A DNA stretch of 64,000 nt from Oidiodendron maius Zn. Its lineage: Eukaryota > Ascomycota > Leotiomycetes > Myxotrichaceae. Where the stretch lies: the NCBI GenBank assembly GCA_000827325.1, contig KN832874.1, positions 200,044 to 264,043 on the forward strand. Direction: 5' to 3'. This document shows positions 1 to 53,387 of this stretch, piece by piece. The stretch's first letter is position 1, and each line of letters opens with the position of its first letter. The position numbers were made by a program, and so were the translations under genes. Under the pieces are notes generated by a model. It did no database searches. It saw nothing but the letters and a program-made list of their open reading frames with translations, and had not been told where the DNA came from.

Positions 1-3000
1 ATTCGCTGCAGATGATGAGGGCCTGCTCTGCTGCTGGAAGGACTGAGGAGTACCACCGGCCAATGGTGAGGTCACTCGAGCGGGAGCTGGTCCTTTCGGT
101 GGAGGTGGGGGAGGGGTAGCGGTCGCTCTGGGTTGTCCATATGGCGAAACTGGCGGGGCCGTCGCCGAATTATTTTGATTGGGAAAGGGAGAAGTAACTG
201 GAGGGACGGGGGTAGTCCTCCGTGCAACAGGAGGTTTGGTCACCAAGGGCGTATCGTTCCAGTTCACCATTTCCTTTGCCTTGGAAGGTGGAGGTACTGA
301 GGGTGTTGGGTTCCTAGGAGGGGCCGAGCCGAACGCTGGCGGCGGAGGAGCTCCGTAGCCAGCAGTGGCACCCCCATACGATCCATAAGCACCGTAACCT
401 GCCTGAGCTTGAGGTGGTTGGTATCCTTGTTGCGGCTGTTGCGGCGCGTAGGCACCCGTTGGAGGAGCATAGGGATTCGAAGCTGGCATAGAGGACTGAG
501 AGGCAAAGGCATTTGTAGCCGGGATGGAAGATGCTGTCGGCTGATAACCTAGAGGCTGAACACGAGATGCCGTTCGTGCGATTCCTGGTTGTGTAGCTGT
601 ACGTGGAACTGTAGCCACCGGTGCCGGTTTCCTTGATGCTAGCTTCACTCTGTTTCGTGCAACTTCAGCCGCAGGGTAATGGTCGGGAAGGAGTGCAAGA
701 TATTTCTCTGCGATAGATAATTGGCCATGTGCGGCGACGATGTCTGCATACTCGGTATACATATCGTACAGAGGTGCAAGCTTCCAGCCAGATGTCAAGC
801 TCCGTTCGGTATCATTGAACTTGGTGACATCTCGGAACACGGTAACCTTTTCGATGAAGTTCTGTAATGAGCGTGCATGAACAGAGAATGTAGAATCTCC
901 ACTAAGATCCTTGATCCCTGCTTTTTCACTCTCCTTAAGTTCTGTGATCCAAATCGAGGTAACCTTCTCCAGCTTTGATCCAACCAAATAGCAGAAGGAA
1001 GCATCTTCCAGGGCACCCGATTCCATGACTCGGTCCCCAAGAGCCTCGCACAAATCAGAAAACTCGCTATGCTCGGCATATGAGCAGACAATCGCCATAG
1101 ATTCTTTCCAGTTTGAGAGGTCGGCATTGTATACAATATCCCAGAGATTTTTGCCAATGACAGAGGTTAATAGACGAAGATAATTCGGCCCCTGTGTCTT
1201 GCGTGACAGATACTGAGACTGTGCGTTTTCTAGGAGTTCTTTGCCTCCACAGTTTGCGATAATCAGAGCATCCGCGATCCGGTCTTCCTTTAGGCAAATG
1301 GTCATAGCCTTCTCGAATTGGCCTAGCATCAATGCTTTAGTAATCTGTTTCTCTGAGTCTGAATCTTTGTCAGAAAAGAGATGGAATGGATTGTCAGTCT
1401 TGGCGCCTTTCGTGGCTGCGATTATTGAAAGGAAGTCCTCTCCGTCTCCGCCATCAGCGAAGATAGTGGATAGTCTGCTGTTCTTTGCCGCTGTAGCAGC
1501 TCCGTTTGTCTCCAGCGTAGAGTCTTCTTCCTTTACCTCCTCGGACTCAGAGATGCCATTTGTTGTCTCTTCAGACTCTGAGAATCCAAGATATTCGACC
1601 ACGCGTTTTCGTGGATCATCTGAAATGAGGGTCTCGATTACTTTCCAGTCTGCCTTCTCTCCATCTGTCTTTGCCTCGGCAATGTGAGACTCGCAGATAC
1701 TGCTGATATCACCAGCTTGAAGTGACTTCTCAAATGCTTCTGTTGCAGAGCCGACACCAGAATCAACGGAGAAGTTTGAAATCTGGATTTTGGATGATCT
1801 TGGCTTCCCAGCTGCACCAGACACCAGGCCAAAGCTAACTAGTTTTCCACCAAATCCAAATGACGCTCCTGCAGGCCGTTCTAGCCATTTAGGAGCCTTT
1901 ATTAACGAGAAGGATGCACCCTGAGGTTGCGTCTGAGCCTTGGCAAAGAAGTCTTCTCCATCAACTGGGCCTTGTGCTTGCGACGTAGCTGCTGTTGGAT
2001 TCGTATTCTGCAGTGTCTGAATAGAGATTTTGCCATCAAAGGATGCAGTGGCTGAAAGAGTTGGATTGTGGGGATTGAATCTTGTCTGGAAAGTCCAGTT
2101 TGTAACCTCAGGGAACTCGCCAAGATGCTCTCCGGTCTGGGGATTCCAGATTAGCGTTCTGTTATCCTTGCCGCAGGATAGCAGTAGGTCGCTGTCTTGC
2201 TGACACCAGGAGAGAGACAAGATTCCCTGGTCATGTCCCTGCAATGTACGTTCTGGTGCGTTGGAGTTTCGCAGATCCCAGAGTAGGATAACCGGGCTCG
2301 AATCATCAGGCGTAGCGGTCAAGAGCTTGGTGGCATTATTAGGATCCCAGGCAATGGCTCCAACAGCCTTGCGGTTGTTGTTCAGGGTAAGGGATGCTTT
2401 CTTGGTCTTTAGATCCCAGACCGTGACAAATCCACCGCTGCCGCCAGTTGCCAGAATATGAGGAACCTTTCTATTCCACGCCACGCATTCGAGGTCGTCT
2501 GATCGTGCTGCGGCCGTACCCAATCTAAATGGGTTTGAGATGTCGTTGATATCGTAAATGAAGAGTTCCCCCTTTGCGCCCGCTGTCGCGAGGATTTGGG
2601 GCTTCAGGGGATTGAATTCGAGTGACTTAATTGCGCCTGTGTGCTTCGTTGTCCGTGACATAAACGCATCTTCAGAGCCTTTTATGAGCTTCTCGGCATC
2701 CCACAGGTCCAAGGAGCCGTTCTCCAGCGCCCCAGCAATTATACCCCTGGGATGGTCCTCGCTCGCCGGCCCCCAGGCAATGTCGTGAAATCTGTACAAA
2801 GAGTACTTAGCATTATATATTTATACCATAGGCAAGCAAGCTCACCTTGAATCTGTGCTGAGACTTGCAATAGGTTGAAGTTCAACGCCTTGTTGACGGT
2901 CATCGAGGCGCAAGTCCCAGAGCTCCAGCTTGGTCTCATCAGAGAAGTCCGCATCGACTGCACCAGCCCTAGTCCCTGTTACCACATATGGCGCGTCTGA

Positions 3001-3054
3001 GCCCGAGGACCACGCAAATGCTGCGGTCTTGGGGATTTCTCTCAATTTCACCAT
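1..3054 (-). CDS. sec31: COPII coat outer-shell protein Sec31 (3' part outside window)
   Basis: This is the large outer-cage subunit of the COPII vesicle coat. It pairs with Sec13 and stimulates Sar1 GTP hydrolysis at ER exit sites. The start [16 protein letters not shown] opens an N-terminal WD40 propeller, with phrases such as [20 protein letters not shown] and [15 protein letters not shown] helical region follows, then a long Pro/Gln/Ala-rich linker near the left edge. That linker contains NWNDTP (about 248-262), matching the Trp-Asn 'active fragment' that inserts into the Sar1-Sec23 site. One intron, 2792-2845, has GT-AG ends and restores phase. About 1000 residues are visible; family members are about 1200-1300, so the C-terminus lies beyond base 1. 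The gene diverges from the RRM gene at 3373. Identity is secure; only the C-terminus is unseen. Confidence 0.93.
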
Positions 3055-3372
3055 GGTATGGGGTGTTGTCCCTGCCGAGTGTTTCTCGACGGGGGATGAA
3101 TTTGTCGACCTTCAGCAGGGGAAGAGACAATTTTTTGAATTCGAATTATAATTGGCGGACTCGGACTTGGGGGAATGTATGCGCGATGTCCTGAAGTTGT
3201 CAAAATAACATGTGTTTTAAGTGTTCTAAATTCGTGGACAGATTTCCAGCCAGCTGCGCTGCGCCTACTTATATACACGTGACCTTAGCCTTGCCTGGCG
3301 AAGTTTTTGCCTACATAAAGGGAACTTTATGGGCTTATCAACGCTCCGCAGCTAGGCTCAAGACGTTTAAAT
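3055..3372. promoter_or_regulatory. Divergent intergenic region between sec31 and the RRM gene
   Basis: This 318-bp gap separates two genes that start back to back, so both promoters must lie here or overlap the gene ends. I see no reading frame of its own. No specific transcription-factor site is claimed. Confidence 0.5.
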
Positions 3373-3938
3373 ATGACAGATCAATCACGCTGGAAAGCGA
3401 CTGTATTTGTTGGTGGCTTAGCACCCATGGTCACTGCTGCAAACTTGGAGGCTGCATTTTTGCCCTTTGGTGAGATTGCTGATGTCTCGTTACCGTACGT
3501 TAAGTCTCAGTCTATTCGTATAAATGGTATTTCTAATGTTCACAGTAAGCCTGAAGCTCCCAATTCCACAGAAATTCACAGAGGATACGGGTATGTGGAG
3601 TTTGAAGATCCCGAGGACGTCAAAGATGCTATAGACAACATGGATCAGTCCGAGCTCTTTGGCAAGGTGATTAAAGTTAATGCCGCAAAGCCTCCGAAGA
3701 ACGTGAACGAAGGCCTTGGTAGTAAAACCGCATTGTGGGAGCAGGTATGATGCTTTATTGTCAAGTTCTCTTGAAAAATCACTGACCGGATTTCTAGGAG
3801 GGTTGGTTGGCAGAACATGCCGTTAGCGAAGAGGACAAACTTGCTGCAGAGAATGCAAAAGCAGGTGTAGAAGATAGGGCAGAAGACCCTATGCAAGGCT
3901 TAGAGGGACTGGATGTGGCTGGGCCAAAGCCAGAGTGA
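3373..3938 (+). CDS. Small RRM protein similar to the RNA-binding half of cyclophilin E
   Basis: This 153-residue protein is essentially one RNA-recognition motif. RNP2 is TVFVGGL near residue 10 and RNP1 is GYGYVEFE near residue 55. The RRM ends with KVIKVNAAKPPK, wording typical of the RRM of cyclophilin E (CYP33/PPIE). The cyclophilin domain itself is absent and an acidic tail ends in GPKPE. Three exons: 3373-3494, 3546-3744 and 3798-3938 (462 coding bases). The first intron is 51 bp, a multiple of three and stop-free, so an unspliced transcript would still be open. Acidic residues and the short length suggest a spliceosome or mRNA-associated partner. That role is inference from the RRM type. 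Confidence 0.85.
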
Positions 3939-4222
3939 ACGGTTTAGCTCTCGATACTTGTAGCATTGTAGGATAGACAATGACTGGAGGGGGCGTTCAA
4001 GGCACAATGGGATATTGCCAGGAGTTTGAAGGTAGTCGATCATAGGAATCGCATATACTTTTACTGCCAAGTGAAATAAAGACATTGTTGGTAATGAACA
4101 AGTTGACTTGCTTTACTTTGTACATCTCCCTCCAAGGTATCCACTGCGTCATCTGCCATACCTATCTACCATCTTGACATAAAAGAAAACCCATATTCAC
4201 CAAGCAGTATCTGCAGCGGTAT
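3939..4222. other. Convergent 3' spacer
   Basis: The RRM gene and the MLRQ-like gene end facing each other across 284 bp. It presumably holds both 3' untranslated regions; AATAAA occurs at about 4076. No other feature is seen. Confidence 0.4.
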
Positions 4223-4707
4223 CTAGTCCTTTCTGTTTTGTCGGGTTAAACGCATTTGCTTGTCCGAAACAAGCTTATTGCCCATCGAATACACGGCGGC
4301 ACCAACAGCGACAGCAACGACAAAGCCTACCAATTCTTAGCCTTAGATTCGGTAATTGGGTATAGGAACACATACCGAGAGGGATCAACTCCGGGGGAAT
4401 TCGCTTGAGTGTTCGGAGTCGTTGTGAGATGGTGTGAGCTAGAGATCCATCAGCTTCTGCAATCCAATGCCTGGCCCCCGTCCAACAGCTGTAATAGAGC
4501 TTTGTGTCACTTGCTCCAGCATCTCCTCTTTCATATGCCCTATTGGGTAGATATGTTGGAAACGTACCGCTCTGGTCCTCCTTCTACGAACACAACTTCA
4601 TCAGCCGTTTTCTTTTTGTAACATGTGACGGGGCTGCGACTTACCGGGACAGGAAACATCATCCTCCTCGTAGGCTGGAACATCCTGACAGCGGTGGTTG
4701 GGTGCAT
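4223..4707 (-). CDS. NDUFA4/MLRQ-type (B12D) respiratory-chain subunit
   Basis: This is a predicted 64-residue mitochondrial inner-membrane protein with one hydrophobic segment (about residues 27-44, GFVVAVAVGAAVYSMG). It follows a short basic N-terminus and the motif PPELIPL, and a basic tail follows. That layout matches the fungal 'complex I MLRQ subunit' family; in mammals the homologue NDUFA4 is now regarded as a complex IV subunit. Three exons: 4707-4645, 4403-4376 and 4326-4223 (195 coding bases). The introns are 4404-4644 and 4327-4375, and the first has a consensus GTAAGT donor. The start MHPTTAVRMFQ is the only ATG that keeps phase. The gene lies head-to-head with cox12, 255 bp away. 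No single open frame covers the gene, so the model depends on splice calls. Confidence 0.66.
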
Positions 4708-4962
4708 GGTGGTTGATGTCCAATTGCAGTTCCGGTGTTTGGAGGAGGTAGCTTGTCGTTTCTGTGGTGAGAGTGTGAGTCCCGACCTTGGATTCCGCGA
4801 ACGACTACGGTGCTCCAAGTATTCCCGGCCGGGTCGCCAAATCCACAGCCGAACTTCCTCACGACCTCATTCCATCTGCTCGACTAGCAAGATCGTCTCC
4901 AATTGACACTCCCACCACGACCCTTATTCCTCACTCTCACGCTTCAAAGCATTGTCGCAACC
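4708..4962. promoter_or_regulatory. Shared divergent promoter of the MLRQ-like gene and cox12
   Basis: Two small respiratory-chain genes start back to back around this 255-bp gap. The arrangement would allow coordinated expression. No defined binding site is claimed. Confidence 0.5.
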
Positions 4963-5446
4963 ATGTCTGATAGTGAACGTGAGACCAAGCCCTTTAAGTT
5001 CGTGACTGGTACGTGCCAAGCTCTCCTTCATGCGCTCTGACGAAAACAACCCATTGCTAACATTGTGCTGCAGCTGGTAAATGTCACTCCTCACAGAACC
5101 ATGAGTTTCGCTCATTGATATTCTTATCATAGGCTTTGATGCCCGCTTCCCGAACCAGAACCAGACCAAGCACTGCTGGCAGAACTATGTCGACTACCAC
5201 AAGTGCATTCTAGCCAAGGGTGAGGACTTTGCTCCGTGTCGCCAGGTATGCGGACAACAACTGTGAGCACGGTATATGATCTAATGAATGTGGATAGTTC
5301 TTCTTGGCCTATAAGTCATTGTGCCCAAGCTCTTGGTGTGAACGATGGGATGAGCAGCGGGGTTAGTATCTACGCTCGTGGCGTGCGATGTTTACTTACC
5401 ATTCCTACTAGAAAACGGAACCTTCCCAGCCCGTCTCGACCAGTAG
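4963..5446 (+). CDS. cox12: Cytochrome c oxidase subunit VIb (Cox12), with a 3-nt microexon
   Basis: This is an 86-residue intermembrane-space subunit of complex IV that helps hold the dimer near the cytochrome c site. It carries the twin-cysteine CHCH fold: C-x9-C in [12 protein letters not shown], then C-x10-C from APC to SLC. The motif [14 protein letters not shown] is a family signature. Length agrees with yeast Cox12 (83 aa) and human COX6B (86 aa). Exons: 4963-5008, 5074-5076, 5133-5245, 5298-5361 and 5412-5446. The second exon is only CTG and supplies the Ala of T-A-G-F-D. The acceptor before it follows a textbook TGCTAAC branch site, and reading past it meets a stop. Skipping it is also in frame but would remove a residue position that yeast (TVGFD) and human (TAPFD) both keep. 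Confidence 0.92.
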
Positions 5447-5654
5447 AGGACTATATGATGGAATGGAGAAGGGAGTCGCAAAACGAAAGGAGTGTGAAGA
5501 ATGGGCGGTGCGATGGGATGGACCAGTTATACACAAGTCTGTGCACTGTACAAATCACCAATGCGAATTGATAGAAAGGCTACATATGGTTCTGATCTAT
5601 GATTACAGCTGCTGGATGTTTCTATGTGATTTGGACGGTTCCTATATGGCCCTC

Positions 5655-7661
5655 TCAAGCTCCTTTTCCTGCCCTTAAGCGGTCATAATGAAGCATGGCC
5701 CCCAGTAGCACCTGAGCACCATTCGCGCAGTCCTCTGGGCTGCAGTACTCTGATGGATTGTGGCTTACTCCATCTCTACATGGCACGAAAATCCTAGAGA
5801 TATATGTAAGTATTCGAATACTTATTCTAGATCGAGTCAACTTACATTGCTGTCGGAGCACGCCTCGACGTATAAACACTAAAGTCACATCAGTCATGCT
5901 CTCATGCTCTAATGCAACTCTCTTCTTCCCCGCCTACCTGTCATGTCCTGCACCGGATGTCATTCTTTGTATCTTGCTCTCAGCACTGACCCCTAGCATA
6001 TCCTTTGCACTGGCCTCCACACATTCTATACAATCCTCATGGAACTTGGTAGCTGGCGAATCTGTATCCATTACCCACTGGACGCTGCATCCTCTTCCCT
6101 TGGTGCCAACTTTATTTATACTATCTATTTCATCTCCAGCCGCAATTTGAGCAAAATCAGACCTAAGTGCGTTCTCTAGATCTATGAGTTTCTGATCTTC
6201 CTTGGATCTCATGTCGAGTGAAAACTGCACGAAACCAGGCACTGTATTTGTCGAACCCGGCTTTAGGGAGAGAATACCAGTGGATGCCAAACAACCTAGC
6301 TCTGCTGCCTTATTATGACTATGCAAGATCAGTTTCGCAGCTGTCAGCATGGCGTCAGAACGATTCCTGAAGTCCGTTGTTCCAGTATGGCAATCTCTGC
6401 CTCTCACGGTGATCGTATACCATCTATATGCCTGAACACCCTCGACAGCTCCTATTTTCCTATCAGAGCTCTCGAGAATCGGACCTTGTTCAATGTGAAG
6501 TTCAAAATGGGCTCCCAATGGGTTCACTTTGTAGCTTGCTTCGAGGGATCCAAGATATCCGATTCTTTCCAGCTCTGACCTCTGGGTAGCTGTGCCAGCG
6601 CCTACTTCGGCGAGACTATATGCTTTTTCAAGGGTAACTGCGCCTGCCCATACACCCGAAGATATCATGGATTGCGGAAACCGTGCTCCTTCTTCGTTGG
6701 TCCAATTTATTACACTGCACACAACCTAAATCAGCGGATTCATTGCATTTCAGGCGTGCGAATTTCTGAGCCATGTCTCACAGATGAGTTTCAAATCTTG
6801 GTTCTTACCCAGTGCTGTATTCAGTCTCTATATTGTGGTCATTCATGGTCTTCAAAGCCTCAATGCCAGCATGAACTCCAAGAATACCTGCTATGATTAG
6901 CGTTTCTCTCACAACATGACTCTGACTATTAATTCCTACCATCATACCGACCACCTGTAGGCTTCTCGTCGTTAACATGTTAAGATCTACAATAAAAGAT
7001 ATTCATAATCTAACCTGCGTATCCATATGACTACCTATCTCCAGAATCAGCATCTGTTTTATATGAGCGAAAAAATAGTACTAACCGGCGTACGTTGGAG
7101 GCCCATCTTTCCTCCCTGGCCGTATGGCAAATATATTTCCTATCGAAGAGATTGGTATAATTTCAAGGCTTTGACATGAAATGCCTACCCATAGCATCGA
7201 TCTTTACTTTACAGCCTAGAGACTTCGTCGTCGCGACGAACCAGTCTCGGGCTGACTTGTCTGCATCTGAAAGTGCAAGACGAGACATCCCGATGTCTGT
7301 TTCGCCACTGATTTAATGTTAAAAACTGTCACTGAGAAGCCATGGTACTGGCCGATCATATAGCGAAGAAGCTTAGGCGTTCATATCCACGACTCAAAAC
7401 TACTCGTAAAGAAATAGGAAATCGCACTCACGGTCCCCACCTCTCCCCTTTCCCCCACTCACAAGTCTCATGAAGATCTCTCCAGAGCCTATCCGGGTTG
7501 ATTCTCACACGCGCAAGCTGCTCTCTTGACATGCTCATTGTCGTCACATTTCTCTTCGTTGTGGTTGAGAATCGTTTATAACCCGAACATGAAGCTCTGA
7601 CGGGTCCAGTTATCACAGGCGCGGACCGGTAGACGGACCGGAGAATGATGGGCTGGGCCAT
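5655..7661 (-). CDS. M20-family amidohydrolase, likely beta-ureidopropionase (N-carbamoyl-amino-acid hydrolase)
   Basis: This 490-residue enzyme is predicted to release ammonia and CO2 from N-carbamoyl-beta-alanine or a similar ureido compound, the last step of reductive pyrimidine breakdown (Pyd3 type in yeasts). Metal and catalytic motifs are in order: SHMDTQPTGGRYDG, WTNEEGARF, a lid with HFELHIEQGP, then TSGAGHDS and VSHNPSEYC. Nine exons: 7432-7661, 7189-7307, 7086-7139, 7015-7034, 6940-6961, 6809-6887, 5938-6714, 5846-5878 and 5655-5793. They sum to 1473 bases in phase. The 20- and 22-nt exons are the shortest in it. The N-terminal 40 residues are basic and Ser/Thr-rich, possibly a mitochondrial or peroxisomal presequence. 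Allantoate amidohydrolase or hydantoinase-type carbamoylase are close alternatives. Confidence 0.85.
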
Positions 7662-8070: not shown

Positions 8071-9036
8071 TCATTTTGCTTTGGCCTTCCCTTTCCCTTT
8101 TGCTGGAGCCCTTGCCTGAGAGCGGCCCTTTCCCCTGGTGGTTGTTGGTAGAGGAGAAAGATCCTTGCTCCTCTCTTGGCCTTCGTCCTCATTGTCCTCC
8201 GCATCTTCTACCTCCTCGTCTTCATCATCTTCTTCATCGCTCATGAACTCGTCATCGTCGTCGAACCCGAAGAATGTCTTGGCCTTGGGTTTTGATTGTG
8301 GCTCTGAAGGTGGCGTCGTATCCTTTGAACTCGTACCTCCTGTGGCCTCATCTTCACTACTTGAACTACTAGCAGTTCTCAACGACGTCCTTAGAAGATT
8401 ATCTCGATAATCCCCAGCCTTCATAGCAGTAAGAACAGCTTCTCTTGTGCGTTCGTTCGCCTCTTCCTTGTCCTCCATCCACTTTCCATCCACCTTGCCC
8501 TTATTACCAGATCTAATCTCCTCCTCTCTTCGCTCTGCAAGTTCTACGACCTGCTCCCACCTCTTCCGTCGCTCCTCTTTCTCCCGCTTCGCCATCTCCG
8601 GTTTGATAGCTAAGTACTCGGCCAGCGCTTTTGCCTCATTCACCGTTCTCAGCCTGCGCCCATCCAGGTTCCGGCTCGATCCATTATCCTCGCCTTGATT
8701 CTTCCTCCGCTTAGAAGACATGCGTCCGCCTGCTGCTCGCAATTGCGATCCGAAACCTCCCTTACCACCACACATAGGGACAGATAGGCGGAGAGAGAGG
8801 AAACCATCTTGAGGAGAAGTAAGGAAATCGGAGATTGGGGTGGTAGAGGTAATCGGGAGTTGCTTGTTCGATATGGTAGTAAGAATCAGGCGATGGTTGT
8901 GAGCAGGAAGACGCTCATGAAGTCGTTCTTGGAGCTCGGAGACGGTCGTGTTGCGAGGGAGTGGTAAGGAGAGTGTCGACGGAAGTTTGAGACCCGGGAA
9001 TGAGGTGAGTAGAACATTCACGTGGGACGAAGCCAT
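8071..9036 (-). CDS. sde2: Sde2-type splicing and genome-stability factor with ubiquitin-like N-terminus
   Basis: A single-exon 321-residue protein. Residues 1-86 look like a ubiquitin fold ([18 protein letters not shown]...). They end at [13 protein letters not shown], the GG-KGG junction where Sde2 proteins are cleaved so that the C-terminal part, starting with Lys, enters the spliceosome. The middle is a charged coiled coil ([24 protein letters not shown]), followed by Ser-rich and Asp/Glu-rich stretches and a Lys/Ala tail. In fission yeast Sde2 promotes excision of particular introns and supports heterochromatin and telomeres; human SDE2 also acts at replication forks. The gene is head-to-head with rps10 across 327 bp. 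The start ATG (9034-9036) is the first in frame. Confidence 0.92.
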
Positions 9037-12895: not shown

Positions 12896-13676
12896 ATGGT
12901 GAGCGTAGTAAAGCGCATGCGGAAGCTGCAAGCTGTAAGTCTTCTTTCCCACGAAGTTTGTGAAGATTCCGGCAGGCTAATCTTTTCGTAGAAGGTAAAC
13001 TTCAACTATATCCTCCTCCACCCAAATCTTCCCATTGATCCATTTCCAGCTGCTTTTTATAAGATCCGGACCAGGCGCTGCTATACTACCGCCAGAAGTG
13101 GCGCGGATCCATATGGACTTCGCGCTGAACACTACCAAAGGACACCACGGTGCGAAGTACGTTCCCAGCTGCAATAAACACTACTCCGGCACCCGAATAT
13201 CACACCCTTCTTCATATCTCTATAAAGGTTAACTAACGACTCAACCCAGGCAGTTCTGGCGTAACCACCTTATCCGCTTGAAATACCACAACCCCGCGGT
13301 CCCCATGACGGTGAACCGAACCGAAGACGCCTCCGGGCCAGCGCTCATGACTCTACATTTCTCCTCCCCCTCCGGCAATACCCCCAATCCGTCAAACCCA
13401 TCTGAATCAACAGAAATCCCCACAACAACCCAAACAATCGACATGAGAAACCTCGAGTCCTCTGCCATCTTTGCGCAGCTAACGGCGTTGACCAAAGCCC
13501 GCGTATTGCGCACCGATCTAGAGGACGCCAAAATCGGACAGGACTTAGAAGAACAGGAAGCGCGCAACAATCGTGTCAGAGAGCTGATGCAAGCGGCAAT
13601 GGCGAGAAGGAAGAGAGAGAAGGCTATTTTGGCGCAGGCAAGAGGGGAGGTGGAGGCGTTGAAGAATGAGACGTAG
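12896..13676 (+). CDS. mrp49: Mitochondrial large-subunit ribosomal protein, Mrp49 type (L51/S25/CI-B8 fold)
   Basis: A 191-residue mitoribosomal protein. The start MVSVVKRMRKLQA is followed by SGPGAAILPPEVARIHMDF, then GHHGAKQFWRNHLIRLKYHNPAVPMTV. This is the core of the thioredoxin-like L51/S25/CI-B8 domain. A fungal C-terminal coiled coil with QEARNNRVRELMQAAMARRK ends the protein. Exons: 12896-12934, 12992-12994, 13050-13156 and 13250-13676 (576 bases). The second exon is just AAG, between introns of 57 and 55 bp, each with its own acceptor and branch-like signal. Merging them into one 115-bp intron also keeps the frame and would drop one Lys, so the microexon needs transcript proof. It is head-to-head with gep3. 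Confidence 0.88.
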
Positions 13677-48851: not shown

Positions 48852-51800
48852 TTAGTTGAGTGTGGCAGGACGCAGACCTAGCTGTTGTATAAAGGTCTTG
48901 TGTTTGATCGGAGTAAGAAGCTTAGTTAGTCCGTCTGCCTTCATGTCCTTGGTTGGACAGTAATGTAGTTGAATGAGACCTTTGGCACGTTCTTCCCGAA
49001 TATAGTGGTATTTGACCGCTATATGCTTAGTATGCTGGTAAAAGGAAGGGTTCTTAGCCAGTTGAAGCGCAGCTTGATTATCCCTATATATCTTGACACA
49101 CTCAGCATCGGGGTTCTGATATTTGAGCTGTTTCAAGGTCTCCCTCAGCCAGGTTGCTTCCATAACTGCCTTGGCCAGTCTATAATATTCGGCCTCAGTT
49201 GTTGAGAGGGCTGTAATTGATTGCCGCTTCAATTGAGCTGATATGATTCCACCAGCCATGAAATAGACGAAGCCAGAGGTTGATTTGTGTAGCTCTATAT
49301 CACTAGCGAAGTCTGAGTCTGTGTAGCCATGTAGGTTACCAGAGGTCTGATCAAGACTACCGAATTGGATACAGAGATCAGCTGTCCCTTTGATGTATCG
49401 CAGTAGGTGATCAGCTACATTCAGGTGATCTGCACTAGGATTCGAGAGAAATCGGCTAAGCAGTGAGCAGGCAAAGGCTATATCAGTCCTGGTCTGAATA
49501 GCCAGGTAGGTGATTGAACCCATCTTTGATTGATATGCCTCAATATCGGCTTTTGACGCTTGATCAGGGTTTGAAATAAGCATGCTGCCCTGCTACAGAG
49601 GGGTTGAGATTGGTTTTGAGTCTTCTAGGTTATATCGCTTTATAACCTTCCGAATATATACGTCCTGAATCAGCTGAATAGAGCGCTCTGCTCTGTTCCG
49701 GACGATTCGCACCCCTAGGAAGTAGGTGACTGGTCCCAGGTCCTGTATATCAAAGGCATTCGACAGCTGCTGCTTGAACTGGCTGATTAGCTTCGAATTA
49801 GGTCCGCAGATCAGTATATCATCAATATGCGTGACTAGTATAATGAGATCCTTGCCGCCTGGCCAGGTCTTGATATACACTGAGTCGTCTGTAAGAAGCG
49901 GTTGGAATCCTAGCTGAATAAGGGTTGTCTTGAGCTTTTGTTGCTACAGCTAAGGAGCCTGCTTCAGTCTATAAAGGCCTTTAAGTAGCTTGCAGACCTT
50001 ACTGCAGATCTGATCAATTGGTAGACCTAGTAATTCGGCCCAAAGAGGTGGAACTTCCATATAAACGTCTCCCTGTATAACAGAGTTGAGGAAGGCTGAT
50101 ATTACATCCATTTGATCGATATCCCAGTCATAAATAGCTGCTATAGCTATAACGATCTTCCAGGTAGCTGACTTGTATATGCTAGTGTAGGTTTAGTCAA
50201 AGTCTCGGCCATATTACTGTTTATAACCTCGTGCCACCCAGTATGTCTTATATCTCTCAATATAGCTGTTTTGATTACGCTTAGTCTTGAAGACTAGCTT
50301 TCCAGTCAAGACTTTGACTCCCTTTGGACAATCAACTAGCTTCCAGGTTCCAGTCTCCTGAAGCTTAAGGTATTCAGCTCGAATAGCCTTCCTCTACTCA
50401 GATATATCCTTTGAATCAGTAGCCTCTTTGAGGGTTTGAGGATCATTAGTGATAACCTTTGCGGCTACAATTAAGGCTCTGAATGTCTGTAGTTGATCTG
50501 CAAGGTAAAGAGCTGTAGTCTTTGATCAAGTGATGCGCTCATATTCAGGGTTTGGTTGCCATACACGTCTCTGGCGCTGGCGCCCTGTAGCTGGTTGATT
50601 GATTTGATCGTCTTGATCGTCTTGATTGTCTTGATCGACTTGATCGACTTGATCGTCTTGATCGTCTTGATAGTCTTGATCATCTTGATCATCTTGATCA
50701 GCTTGATCAGCTTGATCTAAGTCAAAGAATTCAGTTTCTTCATTATTACATTAAGGGATTTAGCCTAGAGTAGGCTGGTCTTCTGAATCCAAGGTATCTG
50801 ATTGATTCATGATATTGTCCTGCTGATCTGACTGATCAATTCGATGTTTAGGGTAACTGATATTTGGTCCGAAATCCTGAATATTGTCCTCTTCACCCCT
50901 GCTTTCAGACTGAATATCAGAGCTGAAGCGATCAACCTTGTCTCCTGAATATATGCTGTATTTATCAAATACCACATTTAAGCTTCGTATAATATATCTA
51001 TATCCACCACCCTTTGTATTTGCTGGAACCCAGATCCTGTATATATGTTCTCCATTGTATCTAACTAGCATACCCACTTCAGTATGCGGATCGATCTTTC
51101 GAGAGTGTTTTCGAGTCTCTTGAGGGATTTGGACATAGCACTTGCAACCTAATATGTGTAGGTACCCTAGGTAAGGAGTGTGGTCATGATCAGGGTCAGG
51201 ATCAGTATTGTCAAGGAAATACTTAATTGGAGTGATATCGTTTAGGTTCGATATAGCCGTACGATTCATGATTTTGAGGATAGATTGGAAGATCTCTAGC
51301 TATAAGAAGGCTGGTATATTCATGCCTATCATAACACTTCTGACCTTCTCAAGGATTAGTCTAATTGAGCGTTCAGATATACCGTCCTAGTTAGCTGAAT
51401 AGGGAGTTATAATCTTAAGGATTGCCCCTATATCATTACAGAGGTCTTGCAGCTGAGCAAGACTATACTCTCTTCCACTATCCAGTCAAAAAGCCTTGAT
51501 TTTGTAGCCATATTGAGTCTCAGCTAAGGCTATAAACTGCCTTATATAGGTAAAGGCTTCATTCTTTTCCTTGAATATATAGCCCCAGTATATATAAGAA
51601 ACCTCATCAGTAAGGATTAATCCGTATTTGTGTTTGTTATAGGCAATTAGATTAATCATGAATGTATCAATGTGTATCTTGTCAAAGGGCTTAAAAACTC
51701 TCTTTGATAATACCTTTCTTATATACTTTAGAGGCTTTATAATTGAGCAGGCCTTACAGGGTGATTTTGAGGGTTCAGTACCTGTCAACTTAATACCCTT

Positions 51801-53387
51801 TGTGATATCAGTAGTCTTCTTGATGTTCTTGAGACCTAGGTGACCTAGTCTCTTGTACTACAGGTCGATATCAAGAGCTTTCGGCTTCTTCTGATCGTCA
51901 GGCTTCCTAGCTATCAGGAGGGCGTTGACTTGACTCAATTAAACCTAAGTGGCTTCGGCTGGCGCCTGTTTCAGAAAGAGGTTTTCATCAAGAGCATAGA
52001 TCTCTTTATCACCACTAGGTGTATGCAGCATTAATTGACCCAGGAGTATATATCCCTTCTGTTCCTTCATGAGCTTCCTAGCTCCAAAGAGGTTGACTGG
52101 ACATTTCGGCATATATATAACGTTTGTCAATATGACATTACGGATCGTACCATCTGAGCGTAGTAGCCACAAATTGACAGTTCCAGATCCAAGGGCCTTT
52201 GATAGTCTATCAGCCGTATCAATTATACATGTATCTGGTGTAAAGGTATCAAAGCAGGCAAGGTTGTTTGCTATATATCCATCAGCACCAGAGTCAGCCA
52301 GCCATTGATTTGATTAAAGGTTAACAAGCACTAGTAAGACTAGGCTTCCTGCTACAGATCCTGTATTTAGTCCGTTTAATTCATTCTTATACTCCTTATA
52401 TAGAATATAGGTCTTACCTGTCTTCTATTCCCAGGCTTGACATCTCTCGATATTTGTAGTAAAGCAGTCTTCTGGCTTGTGATATATATTTAGATCACTA
52501 CAGTTGTTGCATTTAGAGCCTAAACTCTTGCCCTTCTTTCCACCCTTGTTTCTACCCTTATTTTGAGCTGCAAGTGCTCCTCCAGTGGGTTTCAAGTTAT
52601 TCGAGTCATTCAGCTTCTTAGCCTTACTGGCGTCAAGGAGGTCCTTAATTAGGGTATCCAATATAGCCTTTAAGGCTGGATTGTTCTTATTAATCCTGTT
52701 GATTATATCTGTACAATAACGATCAGCCTATATTGGATACGCCTTCTTTGCACCAATCATAAAGAGTATAACTGTATATATATCTAAGAGTGGTGCTTTC
52801 AAGTCTAATAGCTGTGACAAGAGCTTTCGGAATGTATTGATATATTCGTCTATCTTTGCAGTATTCTTGTACTAGAGTCGATTGATATCATTGAGGGCAT
52901 GATATACCAGCATTCCACCCTTACCTTCATATATGATTTGAAGTGTATTCCATACATCAATAGCAGTCTTCTTCCCTTGAATAGCATCCAAGGGTCCACT
53001 CAATATGTTGTTACATATAGCCATCAAAGCCTTTACATCTATAGCTACCTAGTTCTCCTATTGTGTCTGTTGTTCAGTTGAGGCATCCTCCCAGTCGTCA
53101 TTATTTGAGAGATCTTAAGGCTTCAGATATCGCTTTAAGGGGACTAAATGGTAGTCAATTCGATATGATACAGCCAGAACCATTATATTCTCCTTCCAGA
53201 CTGTATAATTTTCATGTCCCTTAAGCTTCTGACCCTGTAGAAGGGATAGACTTGATGTTGATGTTGATTCAGCCATTTTGAATGGATTCGATGAATTCGA
53301 TGACTTTGAAGAACTAGTCTCTGCTTGCTGAGTAGGACTAGGACCAACGACTGTGTTGCTTCTTTGACGACTTCCTGAATCAGACAT
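48852..53387 (-). pseudogene. Copia gag-pol polyprotein, stop-interrupted
   Basis: From ATG 53385-53387 (MSDSGSRQRSN). Gag includes ESTSTSSLSLLQGQKLKGHE and a zinc knuckle CNNCSDLNIYHKPEDC. Protease: WLADSGAD. Integrase: HIDTF and later LDSGREYSL. Reverse transcriptase: THIDDILICG in place of the usual Tyr-Val-Asp-Asp. RNase H: GYTDSDFASD and STTEAEYYRLA, ending RPATLN and a stop at 48852. Premature TAG/TAA codons stand where CAG, CAA or TGG is expected, for example near 49590 and 49945. The frame otherwise holds over long blocks, so decay is by point transitions more than by indels. Confidence 0.88.
50591..50724 (-). repeat. 9-bp minisatellite within the copia pol region (Asp-Gln-x repeats)
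   Basis: Units of CTTGATCGT and variants (CTTGATCAT, CTTGATCAG, CTTGATCGA) run about 14 times. In the pol frame they encode DQD/DQV/DQA triplets. The tract lies in the variable segment between integrase and reverse transcriptase, where copia proteins tolerate length change. Confidence 0.8.

Follow-up and report, generated by a model that had tools for sequence, protein, structure and literature searches.

A Probable 3-nt Coding Exon in the cox12 Gene

The triplet CTG at positions 5074-5076 is very probably a genuine 3-nt coding exon of a nuclear gene of the COX6B/Cox12 family in Oidiodendron maius Zn, and we infer from the sequence that it is normally included in the mRNA. The gene lies on the forward strand of the window, by which we mean the whole 64,000-nt stretch of DNA that was analyzed. 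Exon 1 (4963-5008) ends in phase 1 with the letters GTGACTG and is followed by the donor GTACGT at 5009. Intron 1 (5009-5073; 65 nt) contains the branch site TGCTAAC, with its branch-point A at 5060, and a CTGCAG acceptor ending at 5073. The CTG exon completes an Ala codon (G plus CT) and opens a Gly codon (G plus GC). Intron 2 (5077-5132; 56 nt) begins with the donor GTAAAT and has a weak branch site, CGCTCAT (A at 5114), and an ATAG acceptor, after which exon 3 (5133-5245) starts with GCTTTGAT. Exon 4 (5298-5361) is flanked by intron 3 (5246-5297; 52 nt) and intron 4 (5362-5411; 50 nt; donor GTTAGT), both of which were placed from frame and homology and not by the gene finder, and exon 5 (5412-5446) ends with the stop codon TAG.

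Exons 3 and 4 match PF02297, and the product was assigned to the COX6B/Cox12 family with a score of 86.5 bits against a curated cut-off of 26. The score is 86.6 bits without the CTG exon; the match begins behind the site and therefore speaks neither for nor against it. The predicted product has 86 residues with CTG and 85, reading VTGFD, without it. When the frame is continued past CTG, a stop codon is met before exon 3. A first-pass annotation, made from the letters alone, had proposed the exon on the strength of the TGCTAAC branch site, the CTGCAG acceptor, the GTAAAT donor, and a next acceptor at 5132; it had also stated that reading past CTG hits a stop, that the two flanking introns measure 65 and 56 nt, as is normal for this genome, and that skipping CTG keeps the frame. 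Each of these statements agrees with the sequence, and the median length of the 175 reference introns described below is 56 nt. Microexon length limits used by authors run from 15 to 51 nt; at 3 nt, the cox12 exon falls within the microexon range, and it has canonical sites on both sides (CTGCAG-CTG-GTAAAT).

Splice-Site Strength and Scoring of Alternative Structures

Splice sites were evaluated using a gene finder that imposes no lower limit on exon length, trained on 264 kb (the window and 200 kb around it). An initial training on introns obtained by joining open frames was rejected, as these were mostly false introns, and the initial scoring, which predicted too many introns, was replaced by a corrected model. 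The output consisted of 112 genes, and the 81 that scored at least 20 provided 175 reference introns. These had a median length of 56 nt, with GTAAGT, GTGAGT, and GTATGT as the commonest donors, CTAAC or CTAAT as the most frequent branch sequence, and acceptors of CAG in 100 and TAG in 53 of the 175. The cox12 prediction scored 4.9, below the last-round training threshold of 20, and cox12 was absent from the final training set. With its last round of training on the 81 other genes, the finder placed cox12 introns 1 and 2 and the 3-nt exon unaided, whereas introns 3 and 4 escaped it. The expectation of the first-pass annotation that standard gene callers would miss the exon is not borne out by a finder that has no minimum exon length, which does find CTG.

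When compared with the 175 reference introns, intron 1 stood at the 77th percentile for its donor, the 61st for its acceptor, the 100th for its branch site, and the 94th in total. Corresponding values for intron 2 were the 51st, 75th, 13th, and 34th percentiles. The low rank of the intron 2 branch site is a weak point of the proposed exon, as is the fact that the same finder also made a doubtful 2-nt exon and failed to place introns 3 and 4.

A total of 30 splice structures were enumerated between exons 1 and 3, and 8 of them keep the Cox12 frame. The best of these eight was the microexon form, with a score of -0.02; lower-scoring frame-keeping forms included a single 124-nt intron (-2.89), a shortened exon 1 (-3.16), and a 9-nt exon with a donor at 5083 (-3.56). 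Whatever the frame, the top score (1.47) was obtained when intron 1 alone was removed, but that form hits a stop.

If a single 124-nt intron were removed instead (5009-5132), CTG would be intronic and the protein would read VTGFD. This structure is in frame, its final acceptor is good (75th percentile), and its length lies at the 88th percentile of the 175 introns, so that length alone is no argument for a split intron. The intron-length argument of the earlier annotation thus stands in that both short introns are ordinary and falls in that an unsplit intron of 124 nt is ordinary as well. On the other hand, the single intron must bypass a 100th-percentile branch site and a CTGCAG located 13 nt after it while using a weak branch site, and the microexon form (65- and 56-nt introns) outscores it by 2.86 nats, or about 17:1 in model odds that do not penalize so rare an exon length. 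In 5 of the 175 model introns, of which some could be errors of the model, a strong branch site followed by YAG was bypassed, and the first AG was used in only 92 of the 124 introns having a good branch site, so such bypassing is not without precedent.

The arrangement seldom arose by chance. When the 124-nt interior was dinucleotide-shuffled 3000 times, a 3-nt exon with an acceptor-plus-branch and a donor matching the observed strength appeared once. When thresholds were set at the 10th percentile of ordinary sites, a 3-nt exon was seen in 2 of 3000 shuffles and an exon of 1-12 nt in 27 of 3000. The same score gain from an in-frame exon of 3-12 nt occurred in none of 2000 shuffles of the cox12 interior and in none of 2400 made from 24 further introns (100-180 nt).

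Residue Spacing in Cox12 Homologs

Alignments to solved COX6B/Cox12 structures, which are distant relatives, showed that the extra Ala raises the score in all 21 rows spanning the site, by 0.5 to 5.3 bits. The best solved match, 8c8q_J, scored 136 bits with the exon versus 131 without it; its FTFGTVGFD segment aligns gap-free to FKFVTAGFD of the cox12 product, and an insertion is needed when the exon is left out. All five animal chains printed read TAPFD, and TVGFD occurs in fungal chains. With the exon, the product reads T-A-G-F-D and fits the T-x-[GP]-F-D spacing of other Cox12 proteins, in keeping with the first-pass claim that the Ala restores this spacing. Rows that start behind the site (three Coa6 rows, 9fq7_4A, and an ATPEG5 row) shifted by no more than half a bit in either direction; for 9fq7_4A, the scores were 20.7 bits with the exon and 21.2 without.

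These alignments also bear on the other in-frame structures. The single 124-nt intron loses 0.5-5.3 bits in all 21 homologs aligned across the site and, taken together with its score, we regard it as very unlikely. In the 9-nt form, intron 1 would end at 5073 and intron 2 would start at 5083, giving VTAGKCFD; it too is in frame, but it lies 3.5 nats below the 3-nt exon and its two inserted residues are absent from the homologs printed, which makes it extremely improbable. A third reading, which overlaps with that of a normally included CTG exon, has both forms made in comparable amounts, as isoforms one Ala apart that could be either regulated or noisy. Both forms are in frame and the branch site of intron 2 is the weaker one, which speaks for this reading, whereas the sequence carries no sign of regulation, and we consider comparable amounts of the two to be quite unlikely.

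Several searches yielded nothing further for the site. APOBEC rows in the solved-structure search were dismissed as chance matches, and the other COX6B-domain match in the genome, on contig C2, is Coa6-like by reading and no help for the Cox12 site. Peptides of both Cox12 variants had no match in a peptide search of papers. Relatives of Cox12 were absent from plasmids, viral contigs, and a set of one genome per bacterial or archaeal species, as expected for a nuclear gene.

Proposed Order of Splicing in cox12

Under exon-definition models, very small exons are hard to splice. Introns 1 and 2 of cox12 are short and of the kind common in this genome, and each could be recognized by intron definition without bridging across the exon. 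With only 3 nt between them, the acceptor and the donor can scarcely be bound at the same time, so the two introns are probably removed sequentially. Given its near-perfect branch site, intron 1 would be expected to go first. Its removal would join exon 1 to CTG, leaving the next donor with 49 nt of exon upstream, and intron 2 would presumably be removed after that. If 5008 were instead joined straight to 5133, the result would be an in-frame by-product minus one Ala, probably in minor amounts.

Genome-Wide Search for 3-nt Exons

A search of the 45.9-Mb genome for a branch site, YAG, 1-12 nt, and GTRAGT returned 121 matches versus 220 in a backward control. Among those 121, we noticed a cluster on contig C16 whose spacing was almost always exactly 3 nt. 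A second genome-wide pattern, consisting of a donor, 35 to 65 nt, YAG, a fixed spacing, and another donor, was run with spacings of 3 and 4 nt only; it gave 93 matches at 3 nt (backward control, 27) and 14 at 4 nt (backward control, 30). Two consecutive 3-nt exons were matched 58 times genome-wide versus 0 in the backward control, and 2 of these 58 (on C4 and C21) were simple repeats by reading. The surplus of 3-nt matches was concentrated in a few loci. Solitary 3-nt exons showed no excess: by our count, the 93 include 10 isolated and 5 simple-repeat matches, which is at chance level given the 14 matches at 4 nt and the backward controls of 27 and 30.

Within the 112 genes predicted in 264 kb, the gene finder produced four internal exons no longer than 8 nt, including that of cox12 and one of 5 nt. 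A 2-nt exon in an ARMH3 gene (locus L006; G000:C5, about 121600-122250) was judged false by reading, since the frame runs through the supposed intron, and it serves as a caution for automatic microexon calls. Another candidate 3-nt exon, AAG at 12992-12994 in the window, lies in a gene for a mitochondrial ribosomal protein (L51/S25/CI-B8 domain) between introns of 57 and 55 nt. Its inclusion is preferred by 2.58 nats in the model; the Neurospora homolog 6ywe_j has the skipped-form length, and TAGAAG is also a tandem acceptor.

Probable Series of 3-nt Exons at Other Loci

Judging from their sequences, four loci elsewhere in the genome probably belong to a class of genes, several of them for secreted-looking proteins, in which each 3-nt exon would encode one residue, with up to 58 such exons following one another and being joined one step at a time in the 5′-to-3′ direction. 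In such a codon ratchet, each acceptor would leave one codon before a near-perfect GTAAGT donor. Single codons could be gained or lost by unequal exchange of intron-plus-codon units with the frame intact, and the cox12 exon would be a solitary case arising through the same tolerance of the spliceosome.

All four loci lie outside the window. They are L024 (C16:432000-437000, reverse strand; gene at about 1815-3933 in reverse-complement coordinates), L025 (C18:779000-782000, forward strand; gene at about 756-2960), L026 (C11:305500-313500, forward strand; gene at 1462-5944, corresponding to C11:306961-311443), and L031 (C17:741000-743200, forward strand; a run of ten 3-nt exons). Their models contain 18, 28, 58, and 10 3-nt exons, respectively, for a total of 114. 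A chain finder that looks for consecutive 3-nt exons recovered chains of 16 in L024, 28 in L025, 35 and 22 in L026, and 11 in L031. When exon lengths of 0-12 nt other than 3 were tried on these loci and on L030, only chains of 0-3 were found, except at a length of 7 nt, where the chains reflect the second GT inside GTAAGT. The longest chain of 3-nt exons in 264 kb of ordinary sequence was 3, and 119 of 120 shuffles of the four loci (30 each) had no chain of at least 3, the one remaining having a chain of 3.

The putative gene of L026 consists of a 54-nt ATG exon (MNPRLLLAGLFAALAAAQ), 58 triplets, and an exon that opens with TAG. The first exon, the terminal stop exon, and one triplet with a GC donor were placed by eye; an automatic model of this locus was rejected because it lost the phase, probably as a result of the finder not permitting GC donors. 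The predicted product, MNPRLLLAGLFAALAAAQDCRGFCNSVAAFQQYYPCAAQGCTTAAVDCCLALQNCPNCSGCGTTCASVCLENLPCA, is small (76 residues) and cysteine-rich, with a start that resembles a signal peptide by eye. Its coding sequence would be spread over about 4.5 kb, with no exon longer than 3 nt between the first exon and the stop exon.

The L025 model contains an 87-nt ATG exon, 28 sense 3-nt exons, 26 of which form one uninterrupted run, one 6-nt exon, and a TAA exon whose acceptor (AAG before TAA) is weak; its predicted product is rich in D, Y, and G. A triplet of the L025 chain with introns of 106 and 116 nt was set aside as misplaced, the model having a different start with one 6-nt exon. In the L024 model, two longer exons (147 and 528 nt) are accompanied by 18 sense 3-nt exons, all but two of which belong to the main run, and by single exons of 9 and 6 nt; a TAA exon ends the model. 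Its product is repeat-rich and secreted-looking by eye, with a glycine-rich run at the end (mostly Gly codons). The L031 model has a 192-nt exon, ten 3-nt exons, and two short last exons, and omits a TAA that the chain finder placed before the ten triplets. All introns are in phase 0 in the L024, L025, and L031 models, where they follow an open ATG exon, and also in the hand-built L026 model. Introns in the L024, L025, and L026 series measure 46-99 nt, mostly about 50-80 nt. No Pfam family scored above its cut-off for the four series proteins, and no relative of the predicted L026 protein was found among solved structures.

Short or possibly decayed runs were observed at L027 (contig C1; 4-5 triplets), L028 (C14; 3-4 triplets), and L030 (C14; 6 triplets); a relaxed L028 chain contains a stop triplet. 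Loci L032 and L033 have 3 triplets each and L029 has none.

Conservation of Splice Signals and Scrambling of Triplets

Neutral growth of non-coding minisatellites made of intron-like sequence is another way in which such series might arise. The introns within L026, L025, and L031 are indeed alike, and the runs probably grew by tandem duplication. Across the 58 introns of L026, however, nucleotide diversity was 0.05 over the six donor positions and 0.00 at the branch T, the branch A, and the terminal AG, against 0.35 in the interior and 0.74, 0.75, and 0.42 at the three triplet positions. Minisatellite drift is not expected to keep the signals while scrambling the triplets. A similar picture was obtained for L025, with an interior diversity of 0.43 and triplet diversities of 0.70, 0.51, and 0.59. 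The introns of L024 bear almost no resemblance to one another (interior diversity, 0.64), yet the donors (0.07) and the 3-nt spacing are kept; on the other side of the argument, the L024 triplets (0.45, 0.63, and 0.63) do not exceed the intron interior in variability. The TAA exon is counted in the triplet values given for L025 and L024. In L031, the interior diversity was 0.30 and the third triplet position was invariant.

Stop codons were scarce among the triplets. The chain finder gave one stop, in L031, among 112 triplets, for which the chance of one stop or fewer is 0.072; this is weak evidence against minisatellites. None occurred in the 101 triplets of L024, L025, and L026 (chance, 0.020). 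We count the lack of stops as supporting evidence at most, because the gene finder, unlike the chain finder, forbids in-frame stops. The restriction of the spacing to 3 nt and the phase 0 introns behind an open ATG exon in L024, L025, and L031 also argue against minisatellites, a reading that we consider unlikely.

The series donors are much stronger than ordinary ones. GTAAGT follows 50 of the 57 L026 triplets found by the chain finder versus 22 of 175 ordinary introns, and G precedes the donor in 0 of 57 cases in L026 versus 89 of 175. The L026 donors may thus depend solely on pairing within the intron, which would be expected where the exon is unable to contribute. Human donors are reported to split into U5- and U6-favoring classes (PMC11732430). 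The donor context in cox12, with a G before GTAAAT, is unlike that of the L026 series, which counts against equating the cox12 exon with the series.

If the series are spliced as read, the spliceosome of this fungus would handle 3-nt exons routinely. We infer that intron definition governs how introns are paired here. Bridging across a 3-nt exon would be impossible, and the acceptor and donor of such an exon would hardly both be occupied, so neighboring introns would go one after another. Were they removed in 5′ to 3′ order, each step would add one codon upstream and the next donor would come to lie beside an exon of normal size. If true, this offers a compact natural system for studying intron pairing where exons cannot be defined, and a testbed for the order of intron removal and for the requirements of donor-snRNA pairing. 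It would also mean that a minimum exon length in annotation can miss whole proteins, such as the 76-residue product of L026.

Comparison With Known Systems

Single 3-nt exons are already known elsewhere, and the cox12 exon would add one more member. Examples in animals are the 3-nt microexons of Drosophila troponin T and mouse Ncam (PMC8042270) and of Drosophila homothorax (PMC7392893). Like the cox12 exon, these are in frame and add or remove one residue. The troponin T and homothorax exons undergo alternative splicing, whereas the cox12 exon appears to be constitutive; its gene is a core respiratory one, and the introns on either side of it are very short.

Among fungi, a 20-nt microexon has been described in Trichoderma (PMC11121469), and CYP621A of Fusarium has a 1-nt exon with supporting reads (PMC12940212). 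The CYP621A exon resembles that of cox12 in being an ultra-small fungal exon that keeps a conserved motif, and existing CYP621A models are reported to be nearly all wrong (PMC12940212). It differs in being 1 nt long, essential for the frame, and supported by reads; the cox12 exon is 3 nt long, skippable in frame, and known from sequence alone. Conserved plant microexons, including the 1-nt exons of APC11 and VPS55, are likewise tiny coding exons that are often missed by annotation, and the portion of that study at hand does not describe runs of 3-nt exons (PMC8831610).

The closest parallel to the series is found in the MEG genes of Schistosoma, which encode secreted proteins with a signal peptide and have many short exons, mostly in multiples of three (PMC10526429). 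The MEG exons measure 6-81 bp (3-81 in the abstract), most being 15 bp, with 10-20 per gene and introns of 0.1-5 kb. L024, L025, and L026 share the combination of a putative secretion signal with short exons, mostly in multiples of three, their hydrophobic N-termini having been judged by eye. They do not share the long introns and mostly 15-bp exons, their introns being 46-99 nt and their exons 3 nt. The series are fungal, their exons are exactly 3 nt with up to 58 in a row, and their introns are mostly about 50-80 nt, which sets them apart from MEG genes. No fungal genes with series of one-codon exons were found in the open-licence literature, among the titles and beginnings of abstracts of the matches listed. 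If spliced as read, the series would constitute a new variant at the extreme end of such genes.

Two kinds of stepwise splicing are also comparable. Ascomycete stwintrons are removed in two successive canonical reactions by intron definition, with mis-splicing of the whole as a single intron occurring as a side reaction (PMC12403724). As in our proposal for cox12, a complex intervening sequence is taken out in two steps, and stwintrons show that splicing in successive steps takes place in ascomycetes. In a stwintron, however, the outer intron has one of its elements interrupted and no sequence is left behind, whereas in cox12 both introns are complete, each with its own donor, branch candidate, and acceptor, and 3 nt remain. 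In recursive splicing and RS-exons, the second step uses a donor that is formed at the new junction or lies near it (PMC6224609). In cox12, the second donor lies 3 nt downstream of the junction and the residue would be kept.

Neighboring Features of the Window

A gene for the splicing regulator Sde2 (PF13019 and PF22782) is located on the reverse strand at 8071-9036, about 3 kb from cox12. At about 48852-52930, also on the reverse strand, predicted fragments resemble by eye the polyprotein of a copia-type retrotransposon.
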